64,000 nt of DNA, from the NCBI RefSeq assembly GCF_022565915.1, contig NZ_JAJOYX010000002.1, forward strand, positions 124,001 to 188,000, in the 5' to 3' direction. The notes under the pieces are model-generated. The model made no database searches. It saw only the letters and a program-made list of their open reading frames with translations, and was not told where the DNA came from. Positions 12,342 to 63,883 of the stretch are shown in pieces. Position 1 is the stretch's first letter. Each line of letters begins with the position of its first letter. Made by a program: the position numbers and the translations under genes. The DNA is from Nesterenkonia sp. LB17. Its GTDB lineage: Bacteria > Actinomycetota > Actinomycetes > Actinomycetales > Micrococcaceae.

Positions 12342-13404
12342 ACGCCACCCAGCGGCGCAGCACATCAGCCGCGGCGCCAGAGTCGATGGACTCTTCGGCC
12401 CGGCGCATGTTGGCCGTCAGCCGGTCCACCAGCGGCCCCTGGGCCAGTTCATCGAGGCTGGTCAGTCCGGCCGCGGCATTGACCACGACGGCGTCTCGCA
12501 CGGGCCCAGGCTCCCCGGAGAGCATCTGCCGCACGATCTGTGCGTTCTCGGTGCCGGAACCACCGCGCAGGTCCTCCACGGACACGCGGGGGAGTCCGAC
12601 ATCCTCAGGCTCCAGGGCGGTGTGTGAGACCTCGCCGGAGCGGATCTCCCAGATGTCGGTGGCGGCGGAGGTGGTGATCTTGTCCCGCCCGTCCCTCCCG
12701 CGGAACACCAGGCCGCGGGTGCCGCGCATGGCGAGCACCTCAGCCATCTTCGGTGCCAGCGTGGGGCTGGCGCAGCCCAGCGCCTGGGCGGTCACACGTG
12801 CCGGGTTCGACAGGGGCCCCAGGAAGTTGAAGACCGTGCGGATGCCGAGCTGACGCCGCACCGGCCCGACGTGGCGCATCGAGGGATGGAAGCTCTGCGC
12901 GAAGAGGAAGGTGATCCCGACCTCCTCCGCGGCGCGGGCCACCTGCTCGGCGCCCATGCTGAGGTCCACTCCCAGTGCCTCGATGACATCGGCCGCGCCG
13001 GCAGTGGTGGAGGCGCCGCGGTTGCCGTGCTTGACCACGCGTGCCCCGGCCCCCACGGCGGTCAGTGAGGCCATCGTGGAGATGTTCACGGTGCCCAGCA
13101 TGTCTCCACCGGTGCCCACGATGTCCAGGGTGGGTCCGGGGATGCTCAGCGGGACGGCCTTGTCCATCATCGTGGCGCTGAGCCCGACGAGCTCCTCGGC
13201 GACCTCGCCCTTGGCGCGCAGCGCGACCAGGAAGGCGGCGATCTGCCCGTCACCGAGGGCCCCGCTCATGAGCCTCTCCATCGCCCAGGCTGAGGTGGCT
13301 GCGCTGAGGTGCTCTCCGGCCAGGAGCGTCTCCAGCAGCTCGGACCAGCTCGCGGGCACCGGGGTCGCGCGGAGCAGCGGATCGGGTGAGTGTGGAAGTT
13401 TCAC
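12322..13404 (-). CDS. trpD: Anthranilate phosphoribosyltransferase
   Basis: TrpD transfers phosphoribose from PRPP to anthranilate in tryptophan synthesis. It has 360 residues. Family motifs are DIVGTGGD near 94-101, NISTMAS, VKHGNRGAST near 124-133, and FHPSMRHVGPVRRQLGIRT. Start choice: the GTG at 13404 lies 6 nt after a minus-strand TAGTCT (13416-13411), so it is probably leaderless. It stands alone, divergent from ctaE and far from other trp genes. The trpD next to ctaE-qcrCAB arrangement also occurs in mycobacteria, so it is an old actinobacterial linkage. The 3' end overlaps def. Confidence 0.95.
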   Translation of the reverse strand: MKLPHSPDPLLRATPVPASWSELLETLLAGEHLSAATSAWAMERLMSGALGDGQIAAFLVALRAKGEVAEELVGLSATMMDKAVPLSIPGPTLDIVGTGGDMLGTVNISTMASLTAVGAGARVVKHGNRGASTTAGAADVIEALGVDLSMGAEQVARAAEEVGITFLFAQSFHPSMRHVGPVRRQLGIRTVFNFLGPLSNPARVTAQALGCASPTLAPKMAEVLAMRGTRGLVFRGRDGRDKITTSAATDIWEIRSGEVSHTALEPEDVGLPRVSVEDLRGGSGTENAQIVRQMLSGEPGPVRDAVVVNAAAGLTSLDELAQGPLVDRLTANMRRAEESIDSGAAADVLRRWVAFSQSVS

Positions 13405-53246: not shown

Positions 53247-55732
53247 CCACCGCGAGACCGCTGGATCTGCGGCTGCTTCCCGCCGCGCTGACGGCCTGGG
53301 CCGCAGCCCTGCTGGCGGTGCATCTTCCCTGGCAACCAACGTTGCAGCTGGGATGGTGCTTGCTCGGCGCAGGAGTGCTGCTGACCATGATCGCCTCGCT
53401 GCTGAATCGACTCGTGACCGCTCCAGTAGCGCTGCATGTGCTGCTCTGCTGCGTCCTGGCGGGAGTCGTCGTTCTCCAGGCCGGGACAGATGCCCGAGCG
53501 CACCAGATGAGCGGATGGGCGCAGGCGGTGGCGGGTGACACACCGGTGATGGTGACGCTGCGGATCTCTGGGCAGCCCGAGATCCTGGCCACCCCGGGGT
53601 TCGACGGTGCCGACCGGGTCATGGCCCACGCGATGGTGGAGGCGGCGACCATGCCGGGGGAGCAGCGCCCGGTCCCCGTGGACGCCCCGGTGGTGATCAT
53701 CCAGGACGCCGCAGCGCAGTCGGATCCTGAGACCGGAGAAGAAGCTGCGGGGGAGTCCGGTGAACGCCCTGCCCGGGGGTCCGGCGCGAGGTCCGCAGCG
53801 GAGGTGCTGCCCCTGATCACGGGTCAGCGCTACCAGGGACTGGTGAAGCTCAACCCGACCGACCCAGGTCAGCGCGAGACCGCAGTGGCCTTCCCCTTCG
53901 GTGGGGCCCTGGAGCGGCTTCGCGCAGATGGTCGCGCCGAGTTCACACAGATCTTCAACGGGCTGCGCTCTGCCACGGCGGACGCATCGTCACACGCCGT
54001 CGGCGACGCCCCCGGGCTGCTGCCGGGGCTGATCCTCGGTGACCGGACACACCAGGAAGAGGAGCTCAGCGAGGCGATGCGCGCCGCCGGACTGAGCCAC
54101 CTGACCGCGGTGAGCGGCGCCAACTGCGCTTTGGTCATGGGTGCGCTGATGGGGCTCGTGCGTCTGGTGCGGGCTCCGCGATGGACGACTGTTCCGGTCG
54201 CGGTCATCGGACTGGTGCTCTTCGTGCTGCTGGTGCACCCCGAACCCAGTGTGATCCGTGCCGGGGTGATGGGCAGCATCGCGGCGGTGTCGCTCTTCGC
54301 CGGGCGCGGACGGGCGGCGTTTTCGCTGCTCTGCCTCTGCGTGCTCGGCCTGCTGGTCTTTGATCCGTTCTACGCGACAGAGCCGGCGTTCCAGCTTTCC
54401 GCGGCCGCCACGGCGGGGATCGTGGTGATCGGGACCCGGATCCGGGAGCGGCTGGAAACGTTCCTGCCGGCGATTCTCGCGGCACCGCTGGCCCTGGCGT
54501 TCTCCGCGCAGCTCTTCGTCACCCCCGTGCTGCTGCCGCTCTCGGCCGCAGTCAACACCTACGCGGTGCCCGCCAATGTGCTGGCCGCCCCGTTCGTGCC
54601 GTTCATCACCGTGCCGGGTACCTTAGCTGCGGTGATCTCCACGACCCTGCCCTGGGTCGCGGTGCCGATCCTGTGGTGCTGCGGGTTGGCGGCGGCCTGT
54701 CTCGGGATGATCGGCAGGGTCGCGGCGGGGCTTCCGCAGGCCGCTGCTCCGTGGCCGGAGGGTTGGGTGGGCTGGGGTCTGGTGGTGCTCTATATCTTCG
54801 CCGCACTTGTGCTGGCCTGGGGGCTGGTGGATCGGTTCCGCCGTTGGCATGTGGTCCTCTTGGCGGTAGCTGCGGCGGCGATGCTGGCCCTGGTGCTGCC
54901 GGTGACGGCGCTGGTGCCTTCACGTGGGGTTGATCAGTGGCGGGTGGCGTTGTGTGATGTGGGGCAGGGCGACATGCTGGTGGTCCGCACCCAAGAGTCC
55001 GCCGGCGTGGTGGTGGATACGGGGGAGGACCCGCTGCTGGCAGATGAGTGCCTCAGGAAGCTGGGGGTGGAGACGGTCGAGGCGCTGCTGCTCACTCATG
55101 AACACCGCGACCATTACGGCGGGACCCCAGGGGTCATTGAGGACCGTGCGCCGGGGCTGATCCTGCATGCCGGCAGCACCGGCTGGGACGTGGAAGCCGA
55201 AGTGGAATCGGTCGGAGAGCTGCCCCCGAGCATCCCGGTGCATCGGCCCCAGGTCGGGGAGAGCTTCGAGTTCACCCGGGGGCTCAGTGTGCGGCTGACC
55301 ATATGGGCCGCCGAGGCGCATCACGCCGAGGCCAATGACAACTCGCTCGTGGCGCTCATCGAAACCGTGGACCCTGATCTGCCGGAAGGGACGGTCGGGT
55401 CCGTCGATGAGCCGCTGCGGGTGTTGACACTGGGGGATCTCGAGGAGGAGGTGGCTGCCTCGTGGCTGCGCCGGACGGGAGCCCCTGAAGGTGTTCATCT
55501 GCTCAAGGTCGCTCATCATGGGGCGGCCAACGGCGGCACCGAGGTGCTGGAGGCCACCCGGCCGGCGCTGGCGTTGATCGGGGTGGGGGAGGACAACACC
55601 TATGGGCACCCGTCTGCGGAGATCATCCGCACGTTGGAGGCACTTGGCGCCGCGGTCTACCGCACTGATCTGCACGGGACGGTGGTGTTCACCTTGGATG
55701 CTGGTGGCTTGGACGCGACTGCTGTTCCTTGA
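53243..55732 (+). CDS. comEC: ComEC/Rec2 DNA-uptake channel protein
   Basis: The polytopic channel for single-stranded DNA import, 829 residues with a GTG start overlapping comEA. N-terminal helices lead into a DUF4131-like OB segment, then the Competence domain (HLTAVSGANCALVMGALMGL near 286-305) with about eight helices. The C-terminal metallo-beta-lactamase domain has HEHRDH near 619 and AHHGAANGG near 755, with probable nuclease metals. Full length. In related genomes holA usually follows; here it does not, and the character of the DNA changes immediately downstream. Confidence 0.93.
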   Translation: MTTARPLDLRLLPAALTAWAAALLAVHLPWQPTLQLGWCLLGAGVLLTMIASLLNRLVTAPVALHVLLCCVLAGVVVLQAGTDARAHQMSGWAQAVAGDTPVMVTLRISGQPEILATPGFDGADRVMAHAMVEAATMPGEQRPVPVDAPVVIIQDAAAQSDPETGEEAAGESGERPARGSGARSAAEVLPLITGQRYQGLVKLNPTDPGQRETAVAFPFGGALERLRADGRAEFTQIFNGLRSATADASSHAVGDAPGLLPGLILGDRTHQEEELSEAMRAAGLSHLTAVSGANCALVMGALMGLVRLVRAPRWTTVPVAVIGLVLFVLLVHPEPSVIRAGVMGSIAAVSLFAGRGRAAFSLLCLCVLGLLVFDPFYATEPAFQLSAAATAGIVVIGTRIRERLETFLPAILAAPLALAFSAQLFVTPVLLPLSAAVNTYAVPANVLAAPFVPFITVPGTLAAVISTTLPWVAVPILWCCGLAAACLGMIGRVAAGLPQAAAPWPEGWVGWGLVVLYIFAALVLAWGLVDRFRRWHVVLLAVAAAAMLALVLPVTALVPSRGVDQWRVALCDVGQGDMLVVRTQESAGVVVDTGEDPLLADECLRKLGVETVEALLLTHEHRDHYGGTPGVIEDRAPGLILHAGSTGWDVEAEVESVGELPPSIPVHRPQVGESFEFTRGLSVRLTIWAAEAHHAEANDNSLVALIETVDPDLPEGTVGSVDEPLRVLTLGDLEEEVAASWLRRTGAPEGVHLLKVAHHGAANGGTEVLEATRPALALIGVGEDNTYGHPSAEIIRTLEALGAAVYRTDLHGTVVFTLDAGGLDATAVP

Positions 55733-56175
55733 TTCGAGCCGAGATCGGATGGGCTTGGGAAGCCTTCGGATCTGCACCTTCCTGCGCCCTGTGATCCCGT
55801 TGAGCTGAATCCCCAGTGGTCCTGCGGACGAATCGATGTTTGATGCCCCCACCAATCTTGGGGTCTGCTCAGCCTTGTCTGCAGCGCTTCCCGAATGGGT
55901 GAGGGTCTGTGAGCCGGGGCCGATCACGGACGTTTCCGCAGTGGGCCGAGTTCAGCGCCGGACACCGGCCAGGTGGGTGCCGGCCGGCCTCTCTGATGAA
56001 TGGACAAGTCTTCTGAAAGACACACGAAGCCGAGGGTCATTGGGTGTACGAGTAGCACGCGGTGGACGCTTGCGACGTCATGAGTCTCGGCTTGGCCTCG
56101 CGGCGGGCAGGCCGCCCTGTGGGCTGAGTCGCTGACGCCGGCGATGACCGGCCCCGCCATTGGAAGGAAGGTTGC
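55733..56175. other. Gene-free gap after comEC
   Basis: In these 443 bp no frame has convincing codon use. An imperfect inverted repeat, AAGCCGAGGGTCAT (56027-56040) with ATGAGTCTCGGCTT (56080-56093), matches at 12 of 14 positions. CCCC-ACCAATCTT-GGGG lies at about 55847-55863. No tRNA, integrase or transposase is seen. This is the left border of the accessory region. Confidence 0.5.
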
Positions 56176-57126
56176 TCACCTCGCCTTCGGTCGCGTCTGC
56201 TCCGACGTCCTAGGGGACTCAGATCCGGCGGCCCCCGCGGCCATCAACCTGGGTACCAGCACGGGGAGTACAACGTCCAGGGACTCGGTAAAAATCAGGT
56301 GCTCGTCGCTGTCGATGACGAGCAACTCTTTGTTCGGGGCCTCGATCCGTTGGAACACCTGGCGGGTATAGGAGATGTCGAACAACGGGTCGCCGGTCGC
56401 GGCGATGACGACGACAGGGCAGCGCGCCGGGCCGGGCAGCTCGCTGGTCATCATCTCGGCCAGCAGGCTGAGGGGGTAGGAGCGCAGACCGAGGGGGTCG
56501 GTGTAGAACCGTTTGATGACCTCGGGGTTGCCACAGACCCGACGCGCGTCAAGGTAGGCGTCGAACGGCACGGGTGCCCCGGGAGCGACCCGGCCCAGGA
56601 CGCCGATGCCCCGCCTTAGGGCGCCGTACACCGGGGACAACCAGGTCGGTGCCCGGGTGACCCCGAGAGTGGCGGGCAGAGCCGGGTCCAGGACGTTGTG
56701 AGCGAACACAGCTGCCACGCCGGGTGCGCGAGCTGCCACTGCCAGAGCCAGCACTCCGCCTTGAGAGGATCCGAGCACCATGACGGGTGCACCCGCGTAC
56801 TGGCTGTGCATCCATGTGATGGCGTCCACAGCGTTCATAATGAGGTCACCGAAGGTCAGGTGTCGGCGGTGAAGCCGGGGGCTCTTCCCGTGCCCGGCCG
56901 GGTGAAGCCCAACGACGGTGACACCGGCGCGGTTCACTGCGTCCAGGAACTCCTCGTAGAACAGCGGGTGAGTCATCGTCCCAGGAAGGAAGAGAACCGC
57001 GGGCGCACCGGGCCCTGCGTCCCAGACCGACAGCGCGACCGGGAGCCCACCGGAGTCGATGAGGACTTCGCGGTACGCCTCAGTGCGCTGAACTGCATTC
57101 AGGCTGCGTTGTTCTGCTGTGCGCAT
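56176..57126 (-). CDS. Alpha/beta hydrolase
   Basis: A 316-residue predicted serine hydrolase with unknown substrate. Motifs are VLFLPGTMTHPLFYEEFLDA, GLHPAGHGKSPR, the nucleophile elbow VLGSSQGGVLAL, the acid in AATGDPLFD, and His in DSDEHLIF. Family-typical length, intact. Start choice: ATG at 57126 with GGAAAAGG upstream (about 6 nt); the codon at 57144 lies before that site. It follows a frameshifted ORF whose end overlaps its start, and a DUF6544 gene lies further upstream on the same strand, so the three may be one operon. No leaderless-type box, unlike the core genes. Confidence 0.82.
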   Translation of the reverse strand: MRTAEQRSLNAVQRTEAYREVLIDSGGLPVALSVWDAGPGAPAVLFLPGTMTHPLFYEEFLDAVNRAGVTVVGLHPAGHGKSPRLHRRHLTFGDLIMNAVDAITWMHSQYAGAPVMVLGSSQGGVLALAVAARAPGVAAVFAHNVLDPALPATLGVTRAPTWLSPVYGALRRGIGVLGRVAPGAPVPFDAYLDARRVCGNPEVIKRFYTDPLGLRSYPLSLLAEMMTSELPGPARCPVVVIAATGDPLFDISYTRQVFQRIEAPNKELLVIDSDEHLIFTESLDVVLPVLVPRLMAAGAAGSESPRTSEQTRPKAR

Positions 57127-57480
57127 CTGACACCTTTTCCACATTGGCGCTCCGCCCCTTCGGGTCGACGCGAGCCACCAGCGGCGCTACCCACTGCAGC
57201 GCCTCCTCGTACCGACCTTGGAGTGAGCAGCGTTGCCGAGGTGTCAGGCCGAGCAAGCCCGTGAGCAGGCGCCGTTCATCGGCCGTGCCGACCCGCCAAC
57301 CACTTCCGGAGCCGAGGCTACCAAGTCAGCAAGGCGCCCGGCTAGAACCCACGGGAAGGTGACCTCCACCGAAGTCAACCGGCCTCGGTTCCCTGCAACA
57401 GCCTCGGACCGGTGCCGGATACCGGCCGGGTCTCTGACCGACGGGCTCACCGGATGTCCGTCGGCGGGCACGAGGTCCAC
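57080..57480 (-). pseudogene. Frameshifted unidentified gene
   Basis: Two minus-strand frames together look like one gene. One runs from GTG 57480 through TFPWVLAGRLADLVASAPEV. The other is open from 57325 to the stop at 57080 and reads TADERRLLTGLLGLTPRQR, then RYEEALQWVAPLVARVDPKG. GC-rich third positions move from one frame to the other near 57290, which suggests a single indel. It starts 8 bp after the DUF6544 stop and overlaps the hydrolase start. I do not recognise the family. A sequencing error or chance open frames are the alternatives. Confidence 0.35.
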
Positions 57481-57488
57481 GTCCTGAG

Positions 57489-58355
57489 TCAGTACCGCTC
57501 CGGCACGTCGTAATTGACATCGGTGATCGTCAGCCGGATGTAGGAGAAGTCACCGTTCTCGCGGGAGTAGGCCGCCTCGCCTTCGGTTGGTACGCGGACG
57601 CCGTCGAACTCTCCATAAGCATTCATCGGCGTCGACCACGGCAACACCGCCCCGTAGTCACGGTCGTACCGATCAGCGATCATGTTCGTGGGCCGACCCT
57701 CCCGGTCGAAGAAGAAGGTGGCCGTGCCACTGACGCCGCAGTAGGACATGGTGGCCCGGGCGGCGCCGTCGTCGATGGGGTCCCAGGTGATCTCGGGGAT
57801 CAAGGAGCCGGCTGGGAACCACAGGATCTCGTTCAGGTACCGCAGCAGGTCGCCCTCGTCCATCTCGGGCCCGGCATCACGGGCCACCGGAACCAGACCC
57901 AGCACGCGCATCTCCAGCGCGCCGCGACCGTCGAGATAACTGTCCTTCCCGATCACCGGTAAGCCCGGTGCGATGCGGGTGTTGGCCTTCCAGACGAAGG
58001 CCGGCGGCTGCGTCGAGTAGTACTCCTCGGCGGTGAACGGGAGCCAGCCGAGGTCACCCACGAGCAGCTCGCCTTCCTGCTGCAGCCGGACCGTGGAGGG
58101 GATCGGCTTGCCGACCACCCCGGACCACCGCAGCCAGCGTTGAACAGGCCCGGGGAGGCCCACGAGGTCTTCCTGGCACACTAGATCGAAGGTGACCGCA
58201 GCACCGGGCTCCAGCACCTCGTCGATCTGGCCGTTGATCCGTCGCTCGAAGGTGTACCTGCCGAGGCCGATGACCGATGCCCCCACCAGGACGACAAGGG
58301 TCAGGCCGCCGTAGACCATCAGCGTGCGGTTGTGGATTCTGGCCACCCGTCTCAC
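57489..58355 (-). CDS. DUF6544-type protein
   Basis: A 288-residue protein with an N-terminal transmembrane helix (about 13-32), then a soluble extracytoplasmic domain of the DUF6544/DUF6920 type. Recognisable elements are LPGPVQRWLRWSGVVGKP near 66-83, WLPFTAEEYYSTQPPAFVWK near 103-122, DSYLDGRGALEMRVLGLVPV near 137-156, and ITWDPIDDGAARATM. The function is unknown. In other bacteria this domain often follows a small four-helix membrane domain in one chain; that domain is encoded here by the divergent gene at 58696. GTG start at 58355; 58346 is equally likely, since AGAGG fits it better. Confidence 0.72.
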   Translation of the reverse strand: MRRVARIHNRTLMVYGGLTLVVLVGASVIGLGRYTFERRINGQIDEVLEPGAAVTFDLVCQEDLVGLPGPVQRWLRWSGVVGKPIPSTVRLQQEGELLVGDLGWLPFTAEEYYSTQPPAFVWKANTRIAPGLPVIGKDSYLDGRGALEMRVLGLVPVARDAGPEMDEGDLLRYLNEILWFPAGSLIPEITWDPIDDGAARATMSYCGVSGTATFFFDREGRPTNMIADRYDRDYGAVLPWSTPMNAYGEFDGVRVPTEGEAAYSRENGDFSYIRLTITDVNYDVPERY

Positions 58356-58695
58356 CTCTCATCGAGCCAGTGCGGGACGGACCCAGGACCTCCGTCACTG
58401 ACGGTACTCAAGTTACCGCGCCAGACGCGCTTCGGGCGATCCGCTGCACGCTTGACCCTGCGATGAGATGCGGTGGGCGACCGGGCCAGCGGGGCCGGGG
58501 AGACGGTGGTGATCAGGGCGTCCAGGTGGGTCGATGTCACGAACTGGGAACCGTGCGGTCCGTCAGGGTGCGCCCACCCATGTCGTCTGTGCGCGGTCTG
58601 ACCAAAGGCCCTTCACGGCGCGAGGAGAGATCCTTATGATCCAGAGCCAAGGGCTCGCGCCTGGCGCTGAGGATTCGACCGCGGAAGGGGTTGTC
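58356..58695. promoter_or_regulatory. Divergent control region of the DUF6544 pair
   Basis: 340 bp between two outward-facing genes. An inverted repeat CGGTA-CTCAAGT-TACCG (58402-58418) is a possible operator. GAGGAGAG (58620-58627) and GGAAGGGG (58683-58690) are ribosome-binding sites for two in-frame starts of the plus-strand gene. No other gene is seen. Confidence 0.35.
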
Positions 58696-59109
58696 ATGAA
58701 GGGAGCGTGGTGGTGGGTGACCGCGGCGATCATTGGGTTCCATGGCCTGATCCACCTTCTCGGCGCGGTCAAGGGATTCGGTTGGGCCGACGTAGAGGCG
58801 CTGAGCTCCTCCATCTCAGTCCTGGCTGCAGCGTTCTGGTTGCTCGCGGCCACACTTGTCATTGCGTCGGCCGTGACGCTCGCCCTTGGTCCACCTCGCT
58901 GGTGGGCGGCGCTTGCGGCGCCCGCTGCGATCGTTTCGCAAGTCATGGTCATCTCTTCCTGGTCGGACGCCAAGGCAGGCACCGCCGCCAACGTCGTCCT
59001 CCTTGGTGCCGCCATCTGGACAACTGCCTCGCAGGGGTCACGCGGACTGGGGGCAGGAGGCCGGCCCCGCACTCGGCGCGTCACAAGAACAGGTGCTCCC
59101 AAAAGCTGA
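58696..59109 (+). CDS. Small membrane protein, N-terminal part of the DUF6544 family
   Basis: A 137-residue integral membrane protein with four hydrophobic segments. Typical family phrases are GFHGLIHLLGAVKGFGWADV near 15-34, then WLLAATLVIASAVTLALGPP, RWWAALAAPAAIVSQVMVIS and WSDAKAGTAANVVLLGAAIW. The basic C-terminal tail (RPRTRRVTRTG) stops where the DUF6544 domain would begin in fused relatives. ATG 58696 has GGAAGGGG 5 nt upstream; ATG 58636 (157 residues) also has a good site and cannot be excluded. Function unknown. Confidence 0.68.
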   Translation: MKGAWWWVTAAIIGFHGLIHLLGAVKGFGWADVEALSSSISVLAAAFWLLAATLVIASAVTLALGPPRWWAALAAPAAIVSQVMVISSWSDAKAGTAANVVLLGAAIWTTASQGSRGLGAGGRPRTRRVTRTGAPKS

Positions 59110-59407
59110 ATCCGTGCCGGTCGTCAAGTAACACACACGGCCGTTCAGTGTGTTTGCGAGCAGCGCCGCGGCGGGCCGATGCCAGGTTGTGGCGGGTCGC
59201 CGGTCGGAACGCTCTGGGCTAGGTCCCAGCCCGTACGTGGGTTACCCGTCGCCGGCCGTCGTTCACTCGCAGTACGCCACGGCCCCGGACGTGCTGAGGT
59301 AAGCACTCGTGCCCGCGATGGCGCTCGCCGTCGCACCGGCGGTCAGGGGCAGCTGTGGCGCGCCCCGATGGAGGGGGTGCGCGGGGCTGGTCAGCATGTG
59401 CCACCCC
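59110..59407. other. Gap without a recognisable gene
   Basis: 298 bp between convergent gene ends. The open frames are arginine- and proline-rich shadows. No repeat, tRNA or terminator is recognised. Confidence 0.45.
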
Positions 59408-60154
59408 TTAGACGGGTGATCTCGCCGTGGACCCATCTTGGGGACCAGGTCTCGTGCCGTCGGCTCGTAGGGTGCGGCCTTGGAGGAAGGCGAGCGTGGC
59501 GATCGGTAGCGACATCACGGCGCTGGTGAGGCTGACGATGCCCGCGAGGGGGCCCGTCCCTGCGGCGTACAGCACGAATGCCGCGATGGAGAGCGCACCC
59601 ATCCCCGTGAGCCAACCAGCCAACCAGCGTCGACCGTGTTCGGCCAGGAGGCTGGCCAGGAGCAGTGCGGCGGCACCAAGGAGTGCGTAGCCGGCGAGGT
59701 CGATGGCGTAGGGGATGGACTCGACGTCGTGGAAGTACCATTGCGCGGCGGTTGTGGGGTCGCGGTCGACGAGGTCGGGGAAGAACGTGTACTGGGAGGT
59801 GTAGGCGAGCGTCGCGAACGCGACGTAGGCGCCCAGGAGCACACCGGCTGTCGACCGGCGCACCGAGGACGGGGGTACGCCCGCCGCGGCTGCCAGAAGC
59901 AGCACGATGGAGACGAACGCGGGTGCGAGCAGCGAGGCACCGACGAACCCCCACTGGTATAGCGCGCGGCCCTGCTCGAAGTCGTACATTCCCTCGAGCA
60001 GCCGCGGCGGTGGGGAAGAGGCGAACACCAGGCCCATCATCGAGGCTGCAACCACATAGACGGCGCTCGCTACGACCAGGCCCGTGCCGACCCGGCGCCC
60101 CCAGGCAGCGCCTTCGTGCTGCTCGCGGGCCGAAGTTGTGTGCGGTGGGTTCAT
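59408..60154 (-). CDS. Unrecognised six-helix membrane protein
   Basis: 248 residues with about six hydrophobic segments (near 24-46, 70-92, 102-122, 145-170, 175-195 and 200-225), a short cytoplasmic N-terminus and a polar C-tail. Loops contain QYTFFPDLVDRDPTTAAQWY and FHDVESIPYAIDLAGY. I do not recognise the family. ATG 60154 has GGAGGA just upstream and overlaps the stop of the upstream gene as ATGA, so it was built as part of a two-gene operon. Codon use supports real coding. Confidence 0.65.
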   Translation of the reverse strand: MNPPHTTSAREQHEGAAWGRRVGTGLVVASAVYVVAASMMGLVFASSPPPRLLEGMYDFEQGRALYQWGFVGASLLAPAFVSIVLLLAAAAGVPPSSVRRSTAGVLLGAYVAFATLAYTSQYTFFPDLVDRDPTTAAQWYFHDVESIPYAIDLAGYALLGAAALLLASLLAEHGRRWLAGWLTGMGALSIAAFVLYAAGTGPLAGIVSLTSAVMSLPIATLAFLQGRTLRADGTRPGPQDGSTARSPV

Positions 60155-60684
60155 GGTTCCTCCCTGGTCCTGTGTCCGGACCGCACGTTCACGAGTTCCG
60201 GAACCATCGCGATGTCCACCCGGAGCTCGTGGGTGCGGCGCGATCCAGCGTCGCCAGCCAGCGGTGGCTCATCGGCCACCGGCGGAATATCGGTAACCGG
60301 AACAGCGCCGTGAGCAGCGGGCGGCGCTGCCGTGTGCGCCACGCTCCGACCCGATCGAGCGTGAGCGTCACCCGGTCCTCGGTACGTTCGAGTTCGCAGC
60401 GTCCGCGCAGTTCGGGGCTGCCGTCGGCGTGCAGCGCGATGGTCCCCTTGAAGCACGCAGGCGGGGACCGACGGCGAGGGGCCGCGCAGTGGCGGATCCA
60501 GCCGAACCCCGGCAGCCAACAGTCCGGCGGTGGCCGGTACGAGCACGGCCATGACGACCGACACAGCGGTCGACGGCTGGCCGTCCCGGACACCATGAGC
60601 TGGCGGCGTGGAAGCGCCTACGACTGAGGCGACGTGGGGCTTGCGCTGCCGTTTCGGCCCCTCAGTGACCCACATATCAGTCAT
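60151..60684 (-). pseudogene. Gene with two compensating frameshifts
   Basis: It starts at ATG 60684 with a perfect GGAGG 7 nt upstream and ends with a TGA overlapping the next gene's ATG, so both ends are in the same frame (177 codons). Coding signal leaves that frame near 60450 (after PSPSVPAC) and continues one frame over as CFKGTIALHADGSPELRGRC ... LFRLPIFRRW. It returns near 60236 for HELRVDIAMVPELVNVRSG. In the middle, GC-rich third positions follow the second frame. One +1 and one -1 change explain it. The N-terminus has a hydrophobic helix (VVMAVLVPATAGLLAAGV). Family unknown. Confidence 0.45.
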
Positions 60685-60767: not shown

Positions 60768-61313
60768 GTGGCGAAGGCCCGACCAGAAGTGACCAAAGGC
60801 CCTGTCGTGCGGACCGAGACGAGGCGCATGCTGAGATCGGCTGTCACCTTGACCGAAGGAACGCCGACCCCTTACCTGAAGGTCCGCGACACCGCCATGC
60901 ACAGCCTCGGGATCGGCACCACTCACGACATGAGGTCTGTCATCTCCGGCATCTTTCTGGCCTCTTGGCGCTTCCGCGGCTACACACCGAAGGAGAAACT
61001 GAACCTGTGGCGCGGCCGAGTGTTCTCGCGGGGCTTCGGACTGTGGGACCAGTTCATCAGGACCGACTTACGCAGCACCGTCCCAGCACTGCAGATCCCG
61101 GTGTACTTCCTCGAAGGCAAATACGACTACACCTGTGCCACCTCTCTGGCGAGGGACTACTTCGAGCAGCTGCGAGCCCCTGTCAAGGGCTTCTACGTCT
61201 TCGACGACTCGGCACACAGCCCTCTTCTGGAGGAGCCCCGCAAAGCCCATCGCGTCGTCGAGCACGACGTACTCACCGGCACAACGGCCCTCGCAGATGG
61301 CAACGGTGCCTGA
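60768..61313 (+). pseudogene. C-terminal fragment of an alpha/beta hydrolase
   Basis: 181 residues matching only the cap and C-terminal part of a large alpha/beta hydrolase. The cap is DMRSVISGIFLASWRFRGYT, the acid is in VYFLEGKYDYTCATSLARDY, and His is in FDDSAHSPLLEEP. The nucleophile elbow and N-terminal sheet are absent, and a TGA at about 60729 closes the frame upstream. It therefore lacks the catalytic Ser and is probably inactive. The GTG at 60768 has no good ribosome-binding site. Confidence 0.65.
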
Positions 61314-61522: not shown

Positions 61523-63883
61523 GTGTACGCCCGCATGGTCCTCCGAGATTACCGTCGCAACCGCGGGGTCACCCTGATCCTCGTTCTGCTGATGATGCTC
61601 GCAGTGGTGCTGGCGACCGCGAGCGCCGGGACCCTGGTCCGGCTGGTCGGAGCGTCGGACAGTCTGATGACCCAGGCCGATGCTCCCCACGTGGCGCAGC
61701 TGCATGCGGGCCTCCACGACCAGGAGCAGCTTGACGCCTGGGTGGCCGGCCGGGAAGAGGTGGCCGACCACCAGACCATGCTGCTGCTGGGCATCGGTGG
61801 GTCGGACCTGTTCTTCGACGGGGTGGCCCAGACCGACAACATCCAGCAGAACTCGCTGGTGGTGCCGAACCAGGAGCGGGACCTGCTGCTCGACCTGGAC
61901 AACGAGCCGATCCTCGAGGTGGAGCCGGGCACTATCGTGCTGCCGGTCATCTACCAGGTGGAGGCGGGGCTGGATGTGGGAGACCCCGTGCGGATCACCG
62001 GTTCGGACGGCTTCGCCACCGAGCTGGTGATCGCCGGCTTCGCCCGCGACTCGATCATGAACCCTGCGGTGACCAGCTCCAAGCGGCTGGCGGTGTCACC
62101 GTCAGACCTGGAGGAGGTGCGTGCGCACACCGGGCAGGTGGAGCAGCTCATCGAATTCTGGCTGCACGACCCCGAAAGCCAGAGTGCGACCTTCCAGAAG
62201 GCCTACCAGGACTCGGGGATGCCGGCGGCGGGTCAGATGGTGGACGCCGCAGCGTTCCGCATGTTCACCATGGTCGGTGACGGGATGGTGGCTGCTGTCA
62301 TCATCCTCGTGGCTGCGCTGCTGCTGGTCGTGGGGATGCTGTGCCTGCGGTTCTCGTTCCTGACCGCGGCCGAACAGGACTACCGCGAGATCGGGGTCCT
62401 GAAGGCCATCGGTGCCCCCGGGCGCGGCATCAAACGGATCTACCTGACCAAGTACGCGCTCCTGGCGGGGGTCGCCACGGTGCTGGGCCTGCCCGTCGGG
62501 TTGGTGCTGACGCCTGTGCTCACCCGCAACATCACCCGCTACATGGGCTCGGTCCCCAGCGTCTGGAACTGGGTGGTCCCCGTATTGGCCGCACTGGCGG
62601 TGCTGACCCTGCTCGTGCTGTTCGTGGTCCTGCTGCTGCGCCGCTTCGACAAGATCAGCGCCGTGGCCGCGCTCAGCGCGGGGTCCGCCGGCGGGCGGTC
62701 CAGGTCGAGTATGCGGCTGCACCGCTCGAGGATGCCGGTGCAGCTCCGCCTCGGTGTGATGGACGTCGTGAGCCGCGCGCCGACCTACCTGCTGCTCTTC
62801 CTCGTCTTCGCCGTGAGCACCTTCATCATCATCGTGCCTATCAGTTCGGCCGCGACGGCCAGTGCCCCCGGTTTCGTCAACTACATGGGTACCGGCCAGG
62901 TCGACATGCGCATTGAGCTGCGGCAGGCGGACCCCGCCTCGGCGGAGCAGTTCGCACGGATCGTCGAGCGGCTGGAGTCCGACCCCGAGGTGAGCGCCGT
63001 CGCCCCGATGGTCACCACCCGCAACGACACCATCGACAAGGACGGGAACACAGCGAGCCTCTACGTGGAGAACGGGAACCACACCCTGCTCCCGCTGACG
63101 TATGCCGAGGGTCGGGCACCGGTCGACGGCACCGAGATCGCGCTGTCACTGCTCGCGATGAACCAGACCGGGCGCCAGGTCGGTGACACCCTCCCGGTCC
63201 AGGTAGGAACCCAGGAACGGGAGCTGGCGGTCGTCGGGAGTTACCAGGACATCACCAACGGGGGGACGACGTCGAAGTCCGTGCTGCCCACCGGTGAGGG
63301 CGAGGTCATGTGGTACATGGCCGGTGTCGAGCTGGTGCCAGGCACCGATGCCGGTGACAAGGCCGCCGCCTTCGCCGACGAGTTCGCCCCGGCCACGGTC
63401 GCGGACATCGAGCAATGGCGGATCCAGACCCTGGGCCCGATCGCCGAGCAGATCACCATCACCGCGCTCGTCTCCGCCGCCGTGGCGCTGGCCCTGGCCG
63501 CTCTGATGACCGCCCTGTTCGTGCGGATGCTCCTGGCCCGCGACGCCGGCCAGATCGCCGTGCAGCGCGCGGTCGGTGCCGACGACGCCGGTCTGCGGCG
63601 GCAGTACCTCACCCGGATGCTGCTGGTGCTCCTGATCGGCGTCGTCGTCGGGACCGTGGCGGCCACCACCCTGGGCCAGGGGATGTTCAACCTCATGTTC
63701 GAGTTCGTCTACGGCGGCATCGAGTCGCTCGGACAGGGCACCAGCCGCATCGACTTCATGGTCAACCCCCTCCTCACCTACCTGGCCCTGCCCGCCGCCC
63801 TGCTCGCGACCGTGGCCCTCACCACCAGCGCCAGCTCCCGCTCCATCTCCGAGGCCAGCATCTCCACCCTCACCACCGAATAG
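61523..63883 (+). CDS. FtsX-family ABC transporter permease
   Basis: A 786-residue permease of the MacB/LolC-type fold, two FtsX halves in one chain. The N-terminal helix (about 17-37) is followed by an extracytoplasmic domain (about 45-255), three helices (about 258-285, 310-340 and 350-375), a short basic linker (RSRSSMRLHRSRM), a second helix-domain-three-helix unit (about 425-445, a domain to 640, helices near 650, 695 and 750). EIGVLKAIGAPGRGIKRIYL is the coupling motif; IAVQRAVGADDAGLRRQYL is its partner in the second half. Substrate unknown: lipids, peptides or drugs are possible. GTG start; 9 bp before an ABC ATPase. Confidence 0.87.
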   Translation: MYARMVLRDYRRNRGVTLILVLLMMLAVVLATASAGTLVRLVGASDSLMTQADAPHVAQLHAGLHDQEQLDAWVAGREEVADHQTMLLLGIGGSDLFFDGVAQTDNIQQNSLVVPNQERDLLLDLDNEPILEVEPGTIVLPVIYQVEAGLDVGDPVRITGSDGFATELVIAGFARDSIMNPAVTSSKRLAVSPSDLEEVRAHTGQVEQLIEFWLHDPESQSATFQKAYQDSGMPAAGQMVDAAAFRMFTMVGDGMVAAVIILVAALLLVVGMLCLRFSFLTAAEQDYREIGVLKAIGAPGRGIKRIYLTKYALLAGVATVLGLPVGLVLTPVLTRNITRYMGSVPSVWNWVVPVLAALAVLTLLVLFVVLLLRRFDKISAVAALSAGSAGGRSRSSMRLHRSRMPVQLRLGVMDVVSRAPTYLLLFLVFAVSTFIIIVPISSAATASAPGFVNYMGTGQVDMRIELRQADPASAEQFARIVERLESDPEVSAVAPMVTTRNDTIDKDGNTASLYVENGNHTLLPLTYAEGRAPVDGTEIALSLLAMNQTGRQVGDTLPVQVGTQERELAVVGSYQDITNGGTTSKSVLPTGEGEVMWYMAGVELVPGTDAGDKAAAFADEFAPATVADIEQWRIQTLGPIAEQITITALVSAAVALALAALMTALFVRMLLARDAGQIAVQRAVGADDAGLRRQYLTRMLLVLLIGVVVGTVAATTLGQGMFNLMFEFVYGGIESLGQGTSRIDFMVNPLLTYLALPAALLATVALTTSASSRSISEASISTLTTE

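Follow-up and report, generated by a model that had tools for sequence, protein, structure and literature searches.

A membrane-anchored DUF6544 protein with a predicted LolA/LolB/LprG-like fold and a neighbouring four-helix membrane module in Nesterenkonia sp. LB17

The window analysed here, a stretch of 64,000 nucleotides from Nesterenkonia sp. LB17, holds a gene for a DUF6544 protein and a gene for a small membrane protein lying head to head, 340 bases apart. A sequence-only reading of the window had taken them for the halves of a single gene that was split in two and whose products still work together as a membrane complex. The locus raises the question of whether the two genes descend from one chain or came together with separate histories, and whether their products cooperate. 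The features discussed are listed below in window coordinates.

55590-55775 (+): 3' end of comEC, repeated downstream (89% over 186 columns)
57489-58355 (-): DUF6544 gene, 288 aa from the GTG at 58355, with matches to PF20181 and PF21900
57492-58163 (-): DUF6544 domain, a predicted LolA/LolB/LprG-like half-barrel (structure model and structure comparison)
58266-58322 (-): single hydrophobic helix, membrane anchor of the DUF6544 protein (hydropathy, alignment, model)
58356-58695: intergenic region of the divergent pair, 340 bases (sequence)
58683-58690 (+): ribosome-site-like GGAAGGGG, 5 bases 5' of the ATG of the small gene
58696-59109 (+): small membrane protein gene, 137 aa (product 58696-59106), a homologue of the four-helix module with which fused DUF6544 proteins begin
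58741-58764 (+): H16-x3-H20-x2-G23 motif in helix 1 of the small protein; the corresponding H12, H16 and G19 (L019 numbering) are identical in 36/36 fused sequences
58960-58992 (+): W89-S-D-A-K-A-G-T-A-A-N99 motif between helices 3 and 4 of the small protein
59035-59106 (+): basic C-terminal tail of the small protein, aligning to the start of the fused linker

The gene pair sits between two copies of the 3' end of comEC, the second of which lies about 17.3 kb downstream, beyond the window (L067, about 12932-13116), and is 89% identical over 186 bases. Six relatives have a short stretch or other genes after comEC, and the region downstream of comEC is variable within the genus. A comEC fragment is also present in the relative G644. 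A DNA search, which could miss diverged copies, did not find the pair in 29 other genomes of the genus; of the 30 genomes in this set, four are less than 90% complete or more than 5% contaminated, and two gave only matches of 30-41 bases. A non-exhaustive scan of ORFs showed no integrase. A promoter scan of 56000-60300, which takes in the putative shared control region of the sequence-only reading, returned one weak promoter-like match at 58612-58640 (+), with 0.4 expected from shuffles, and none on the minus strand.

Near the pair, 60768-61313 encodes a truncated alpha/beta hydrolase represented by its C-terminal part only (weak Pfam matches to profile ends). Two ABC genes, one for a permease of the FtsX type and one for an ATPase, follow a few kb downstream (window 61523-63883 and L067 3893-4660), and on a Nostoc plasmid (L106) an ABC gene adjoins DUF6544. 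FtsX-type transporters pass lipoproteins to LolA in other bacteria; the cases that might link such transporters to DUF6544 were too few to count.

The product of 57489-58355 (-) belongs to DUF6544, matching PF20181 with an E-value of 5.8e-71 and 238.7 bits against a curated cut-off of 25. It also matches PF21900 (DUF6920; E 1.2e-61), no further Pfam match was found up to E 1, and it is the only DUF6544 match in the 2.8 Mb genome. Judging from the sequence, a second GTG at 58346, with AGGTGA just 5' of it, may be the real start of the gene. Counted from this codon, residues 9-27 form a strongly hydrophobic helix (hydropathy 2.11) which precedes the DUF6544 domain and which, in the alignment, stands where the fused proteins have helix 4. 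Helix 18-45 in the structure model of the window protein likewise corresponds to 87-123 in the model of the fused protein L019. The protein had been read as the soluble DUF6544 module, and its domain is borne out by the PF20181 match, but its own membrane helix makes the description as soluble incomplete.

No Pfam or NCBIfam family matched the product of 58696-59106 (+) up to E 1. The small protein shares, however, 27-53% identity with the 16 modules of other genomes in the alignment and is thus a real homologue, not a chance frame; its reading as a small membrane module is upheld by this homology to the four-helix module of fused DUF6544 proteins. Searched against a profile of type-A fused proteins it gave E 1.9e-37 over model positions 6-130 of 373, and its alignment to the fused proteins ends at the linker. 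The module helices span 2-23, 38-59, 65-83 and 87-123 in the L019 model. His12, His16, Gly19, Trp44, Ser76, Trp84, Ala87 and Asn94 (L019 numbering) are invariant in all 36 fused sequences compared, Asp86, Gly90, Thr91 and Trp66 are near-invariant, and the small protein retains 12 of these 12 residues. Within the W89 to N99 motif, W, A and N occur in 36/36 fused sequences, G in 35/36, T in 34/36 and D in 33/36. No Pfam family fits the module above its cut-off, and that it is described by no Pfam model is an observation new here.

Two known groups of membrane proteins were considered as kin of the module. Kinship to DoxX (PF07681) is unsupported: hhalign gave 0.7% with one DoxX sequence, the small protein has no DoxX match up to E 1, and weak matches among module members numbered 3 of 17 (best E 0.0092) and 2 of 43. 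At L048 a DoxX gene (2413-2961, E 3.9e-18) lies 5' of DUF6544, where the sister locus L045 has a module gene; the L045 module is only distantly related and sits on a long branch. Members of the Lipocone superfamily are outlined in PMC12419801 as four-helix lipid enzymes with His in H2, Glu in H3 and Asp in H4. By eye, the conserved residues of the module are placed differently, helix 1 bearing two His, helix 2 Trp and helix 3 Ser, with Asp and Asn at helix 4, a misfit on which this kinship was dropped. According to the same source, operons of a cpCone-1 family also hold a LolA-like lipoprotein and a 'novel 4TM protein' (PMC12419801).

The codon adaptation of the small gene is low at 0.381, the 114 overlapping control pieces taken from nine window genes all reaching 0.446 or more, and the wrong frames of the gene come close to it (0.313 and 0.355). 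Codon-position G+C in its tail is 0.71/0.88/0.54, unlike the compared genes, and the C-terminal tail looks non-coding-like in sequence. Downstream of the gene, a type-A linker/domain profile scored the plus-strand frames at the background of other window frames, and a six-frame check with window proteins gave no significant DUF6544 remnant. The tail in another frame had appeared linker-like by eye, a candidate that was dropped when the profile search found nothing above background.

Chains that fuse the module to DUF6544, named in the sequence-only reading, do exist in other bacteria. Thirteen of the 16 module-bearing loci first collected carry both parts in one frame, across four phyla. Fourteen of the 16 are among the matches listed when the genome collection was scanned for the pattern of the small protein, and an order-level search added two with a clear module. 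The remaining three (L004, L011 and L018) have the module alone; L005, a weak match with stops, has no module and is outside the 16. The window pair consists of two separate divergent frames and not of one open frame. Three further samples of DUF6544 loci were classed by architecture, 'without module' meaning none in frame or within about 1.4 kb. In the phylum of the window, one of 29 other loci is fused (L031), one has adjacent genes (L045) and 27 are without module. The Myxococcota-centred sample (25 loci) has nine fused, two broken fusions (L117, L122) and 14 alone, and the Bacteroidota-centred sample (29 loci) has 11 fused, 17 alone and one, L156, in which a gene starting with the module follows. 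Modules of this type thus mostly come with DUF6544, but DUF6544 is often without a module. Of the two results named beforehand as counting against the split, a lack of fused homologues is not seen, while independent halves in most genomes are borne out in the phylum of the window, where 27 of 29 other loci have no module and 4 of 45 genomes with DUF6544 have any detected module.

These counts refer to 30 of 48 match rows fetched for the phylum of the window, 30 of 45 for the Bacteroidota-centred and 29 of 29 for the Myxococcota-centred sample, and some loci are shortened by contig ends. They omit fragments of fewer than 150 profile positions (such as L139, L140 and L142) and copies (such as L001, L020, L108-L110 and L112), the fusions L108 and L109 among them; L119, whose two parts are exactly those of L019, is counted in its sample and stands outside the 36 fused sequences.

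At the level of genomes, DUF6544 was matched in 45 of 396 from the phylum of the window, 27 of 188 in a Myxococcales-centred set and 42 of 198 in a Chitinophagaceae-centred set. The module occurs in 4 of the 45 phylum genomes with DUF6544 and in 5 of the 351 without it (Fisher p 0.012), a p-value that becomes 0.049 with the window left out, and two of the five DUF6544-free genomes have weak matches with stops. Two more genomes of this sample carry the two parts unfused, as the window does: G395 has them next to each other, G420 on different contigs. At L045 the module frame is upstream of the DUF6544 frame on the same strand and overlaps it, and at L156 the gene starting with the module begins about 55 bases after the DUF6544 gene. 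This L156 gene (2252-3670), directly after a standalone DUF6544 gene, fuses the module to a different, unannotated C-terminal part. The module was found without detected DUF6544 in G371, G597, G569 and G666, the last being the metagenome assembly that holds L018. In Cryobacterium cheniae (L011, 3983-4366) the module is cut at the linker beside other genes, and the three further DUF6544 matches in that genome are all fused. L021 is a type-A DUF6544 protein which, by eye, seems to retain no more of the module than its last helix and the linker, in parallel to the window protein. In a plasmid collection 24 records matched DUF6544 and none matched the small protein.

The two window products were placed in separate trees. 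In a tree of 45 domains the window DUF6544 is sister to the standalone one-anchor protein L028 (97/93), which it is also near in the larger tree (82/83), and it lies outside a type-A clade of 13 rows comprising 12 fused proteins and L021 (100/97). Forcing it together with these 13 rows, which by themselves form one clade, was rejected by the AU test (p 0.0015), as was joining it with L008 and L015 (about 1e-47; 7e-67 in the 80-row tree); a place with the type-B Myxococcales fusions L017 and L019 was not rejected (p 0.126). In the module trees, L008 and L015 are the only rows that group with the window module (89/81 in 21 rows; 85/78 in 47). Joining it with five Myxococcales type-B modules, which form one branch (76/81), was rejected (p 0.009), and p was 0.009 for L017 alone, 0.009 for L019/L119 and 0.033 for L116 with L122; these comparisons are to be read with module trees that are short (about 128 columns) and have several weak branches, and with AU groups chosen after seeing the trees. 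A position of the window module just outside a 15-row group around the type-A actinobacterial modules gave p 0.31, and narrower groups gave 0.053 and 0.068. The 80-row tree left out 25 remote loci and the larger module tree three remote modules.

Three other AU comparisons were set aside. Those of the window with all 12 type-B modules (p 0.0006) and with all fused domains (p 0.0001) give no support, as control tests reject both sets as clades when the window is left out, too (p 0.008 and 0.007). That of the window module with L017 and L019 in the 21-row tree (p 0.0004) is weak for a similar reason, that tree giving no proof that the two form a clade.

Fission of a sampled type-A fusion is therefore rejected by the domain (p 0.0015), and fission of a Myxococcales type-B fusion by the module (p 0.009). 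Helix 4 or its counterpart is moreover present in both window products (hydropathy, alignment, model), so that a clean cut of one chain would not yield the pair. In the 80-row domain tree, the window DUF6544 falls in a 16-row clade (100/96) with 11 fused proteins and one broken fusion, and since this clade is mostly fused its ancestors may well have been fused. L115 (907-2172) combines a type-B domain with a module near the actinobacterial type-A modules (98/88 group), so that domain and module may have been recombined. Joining the window domain with L115 was not rejected (p 0.078; 0.015 with L115 and L146), nor was joining the two modules (p 0.20), so an unsampled L115-like ancestor is possible. 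The claim that one gene was split in two thus fails for the type-A and Myxococcales type-B sources and survives for an L115-like source. Overall, we consider it probable that the two halves have separate histories.

What the DUF6544 domain might do was approached through its fold. The model of the window protein (pLDDT 87.9, pTM 0.84) and that of the fused protein L019 (pLDDT 93.4, pTM 0.85) show the same kind of fold. Foldseek matched the window protein to LolA3 of Porphyromonas gingivalis (9tp6_B) with E 9.9e-7, and VIA-align matched residues 64-280 to LolB (9rlg_L; Z 11.5, rmsd 3.7, 163 aligned) and the L019 model to LolB 8cm1 (Z 12.1, rmsd 4.0, 165 aligned). The Foldseek TM-scores are modest (0.42 by query and 0.48 by target for 9tp6_B; 0.29 and 0.53 for 8orn_B against the fused model) and identity in the structural alignments with LolA, LolB and LprG folds is 4-17%, so the likeness is a match of fold, not of family. 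The LolA, LolB and LppX-LprAFG Pfam models did not match the window protein up to E 1, and a sequence search of solved structures gave best E-values of 0.13 and 0.32, both to unrelated proteins. From the models, the DUF6544 domain very probably has the LolA/LolB/LprG half-barrel fold, an assignment new here, the fold neighbours being those present in the VIA-align lists, while a family absent from these lists could also be kin.

The binding of hydrophobic ligands is described as a common feature of this fold, with LolA and LolB carrying lipoproteins and LprG carrying triacylglycerides, and the regulator RseB and the cytosolic enzyme VioE share the fold (PMC6363788). By analogy with the fold, we lean towards a role of DUF6544 in handling hydrophobic ligands. 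Charges were counted in 36 fused sequences to place the domain; the cytosol is favoured in 29 of 36 if the linker is counted, and without the linker the count is even (more in 13, equal in 10, fewer in 13). By eye, the relative L153 begins with a lipobox-like stretch and reads as a lipoprotein, and some standalone members show no anchor. As the fused charges lean cytosolic with the linker counted whereas L153 is lipoprotein-like, the fused and standalone forms may face opposite sides of the membrane.

The explanation we tentatively favour, at somewhat less than even probability, is that two genes of separate history lie side by side in a strain-specific region, where a membrane-tethered binder of lipid or lipoprotein is found beside a detached partner module. 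The DUF6544 gene would be a standalone member with one membrane anchor, whose half-barrel, by analogy with the fold, would bind a lipid, a lipoprotein or another hydrophobic ligand at the membrane surface. The small gene would represent another fused DUF6544 protein reduced to its four-helix module, without the DUF6544 domain, its nearest relatives being the actinobacterial type-A ones. If the module of the fused form anchors the cup and presents ligand to it, the detached module may here serve the standalone protein in trans. A functional link is plausible given the repeated fusion, the adjacent unfused genes at L045 and L156, and the 12 conserved module residues kept in the small protein, and cooperation of the two window products has, in our estimate, just under an even chance. 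A bolder and rather doubtful version is that DUF6544 and the module together form a membrane device for lipid or lipoprotein handling that has not been described before, a LolA/LolB-like cup on a membrane domain whose invariant His-x3-His and conserved Trp-Asp-Asn would act on or load the ligand, with the module acting in trans at this locus.

The poor codon adaptation of the small gene keeps another explanation in play, namely that it is the decaying remnant of a fused gene that has lost its DUF6544 part, an accidental neighbour with no joint work. Its non-coding-like tail, the end of its alignment at the linker with no DUF6544 remnant detected beyond, and the Cryobacterium cheniae module at L011, cut at about the same place in a genome whose three other matches are all fused, all fit decay, as do the truncated hydrolase at 60768-61313 and the variability after comEC. 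We nevertheless hold it to be unlikely, as the small gene retains 12 of 12 conserved residues after long divergence and has good ribosome-site spacing, and the two parts adjoin in two other lineages (L045, L156).

Fission of one fused gene into two divergent genes, with the halves forming a membrane complex as the sequence-only reading had it, can draw on the commonness of fused homologues, on the 16-row clade (100/96) with its 11 fusions and one broken fusion, and on L115, a fusion of type-B domain and type-A-like module whose joins are not rejected (p 0.078 and 0.20). Against this stand the rejection of type-A fusions for the domain (p 0.0015) and of Myxococcales type-B fusions for the module (p 0.009), and the fourth helix that each product has of its own, which would need a duplication plus an inversion of one half; we regard fission as quite improbable. 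A small chance, finally, is given to both genes working independently, the module being a small membrane protein with its own role. Modules in genomes without detected DUF6544 (G371, G597, G569, G666) and the different C-terminal part fused to the L156 module agree with independent roles, but most of the modules nearest to that of the window are part of DUF6544 fusions, and L156 itself adjoins a DUF6544 gene.

DUF6544 is widespread, and neither DUF6544 nor DUF6920 is mentioned in the full text of the open-licence literature searched. A carrier-like fold together with a conserved, unannotated membrane module points to a first testable role for the family, in lipid or lipoprotein handling, and the window pair, together with L045 and L156, offers a natural test of the module as a separate subunit.

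Compared with known systems, both window products have homologues in the fused DUF6544 proteins (L008 from Terrabacter, L009 from Chloroflexota, L010 from Chitinophagaceae, L019 from Myxococcales, and L115), but those are single chains, whereas the window has two divergent genes whose halves resemble different fused lineages. The standalone one-anchor proteins L028, L025 and L143 have the same architecture as the window DUF6544 protein, although no module was found within about 1.4 kb on each side of their genes, unlike in the window. Like the module, DoxX is a small membrane protein of several helices and has an HG motif; sequence kinship of the two is unsupported. With the lipoprotein carriers LolA and LolB and the lipid carriers LprG and LppX, the window DUF6544 domain shares its predicted fold (Z 11-12 against LolB in VIA-align; LolA3 and LprG as Foldseek matches), but the window protein has a membrane helix in place of a clear cleavable signal.
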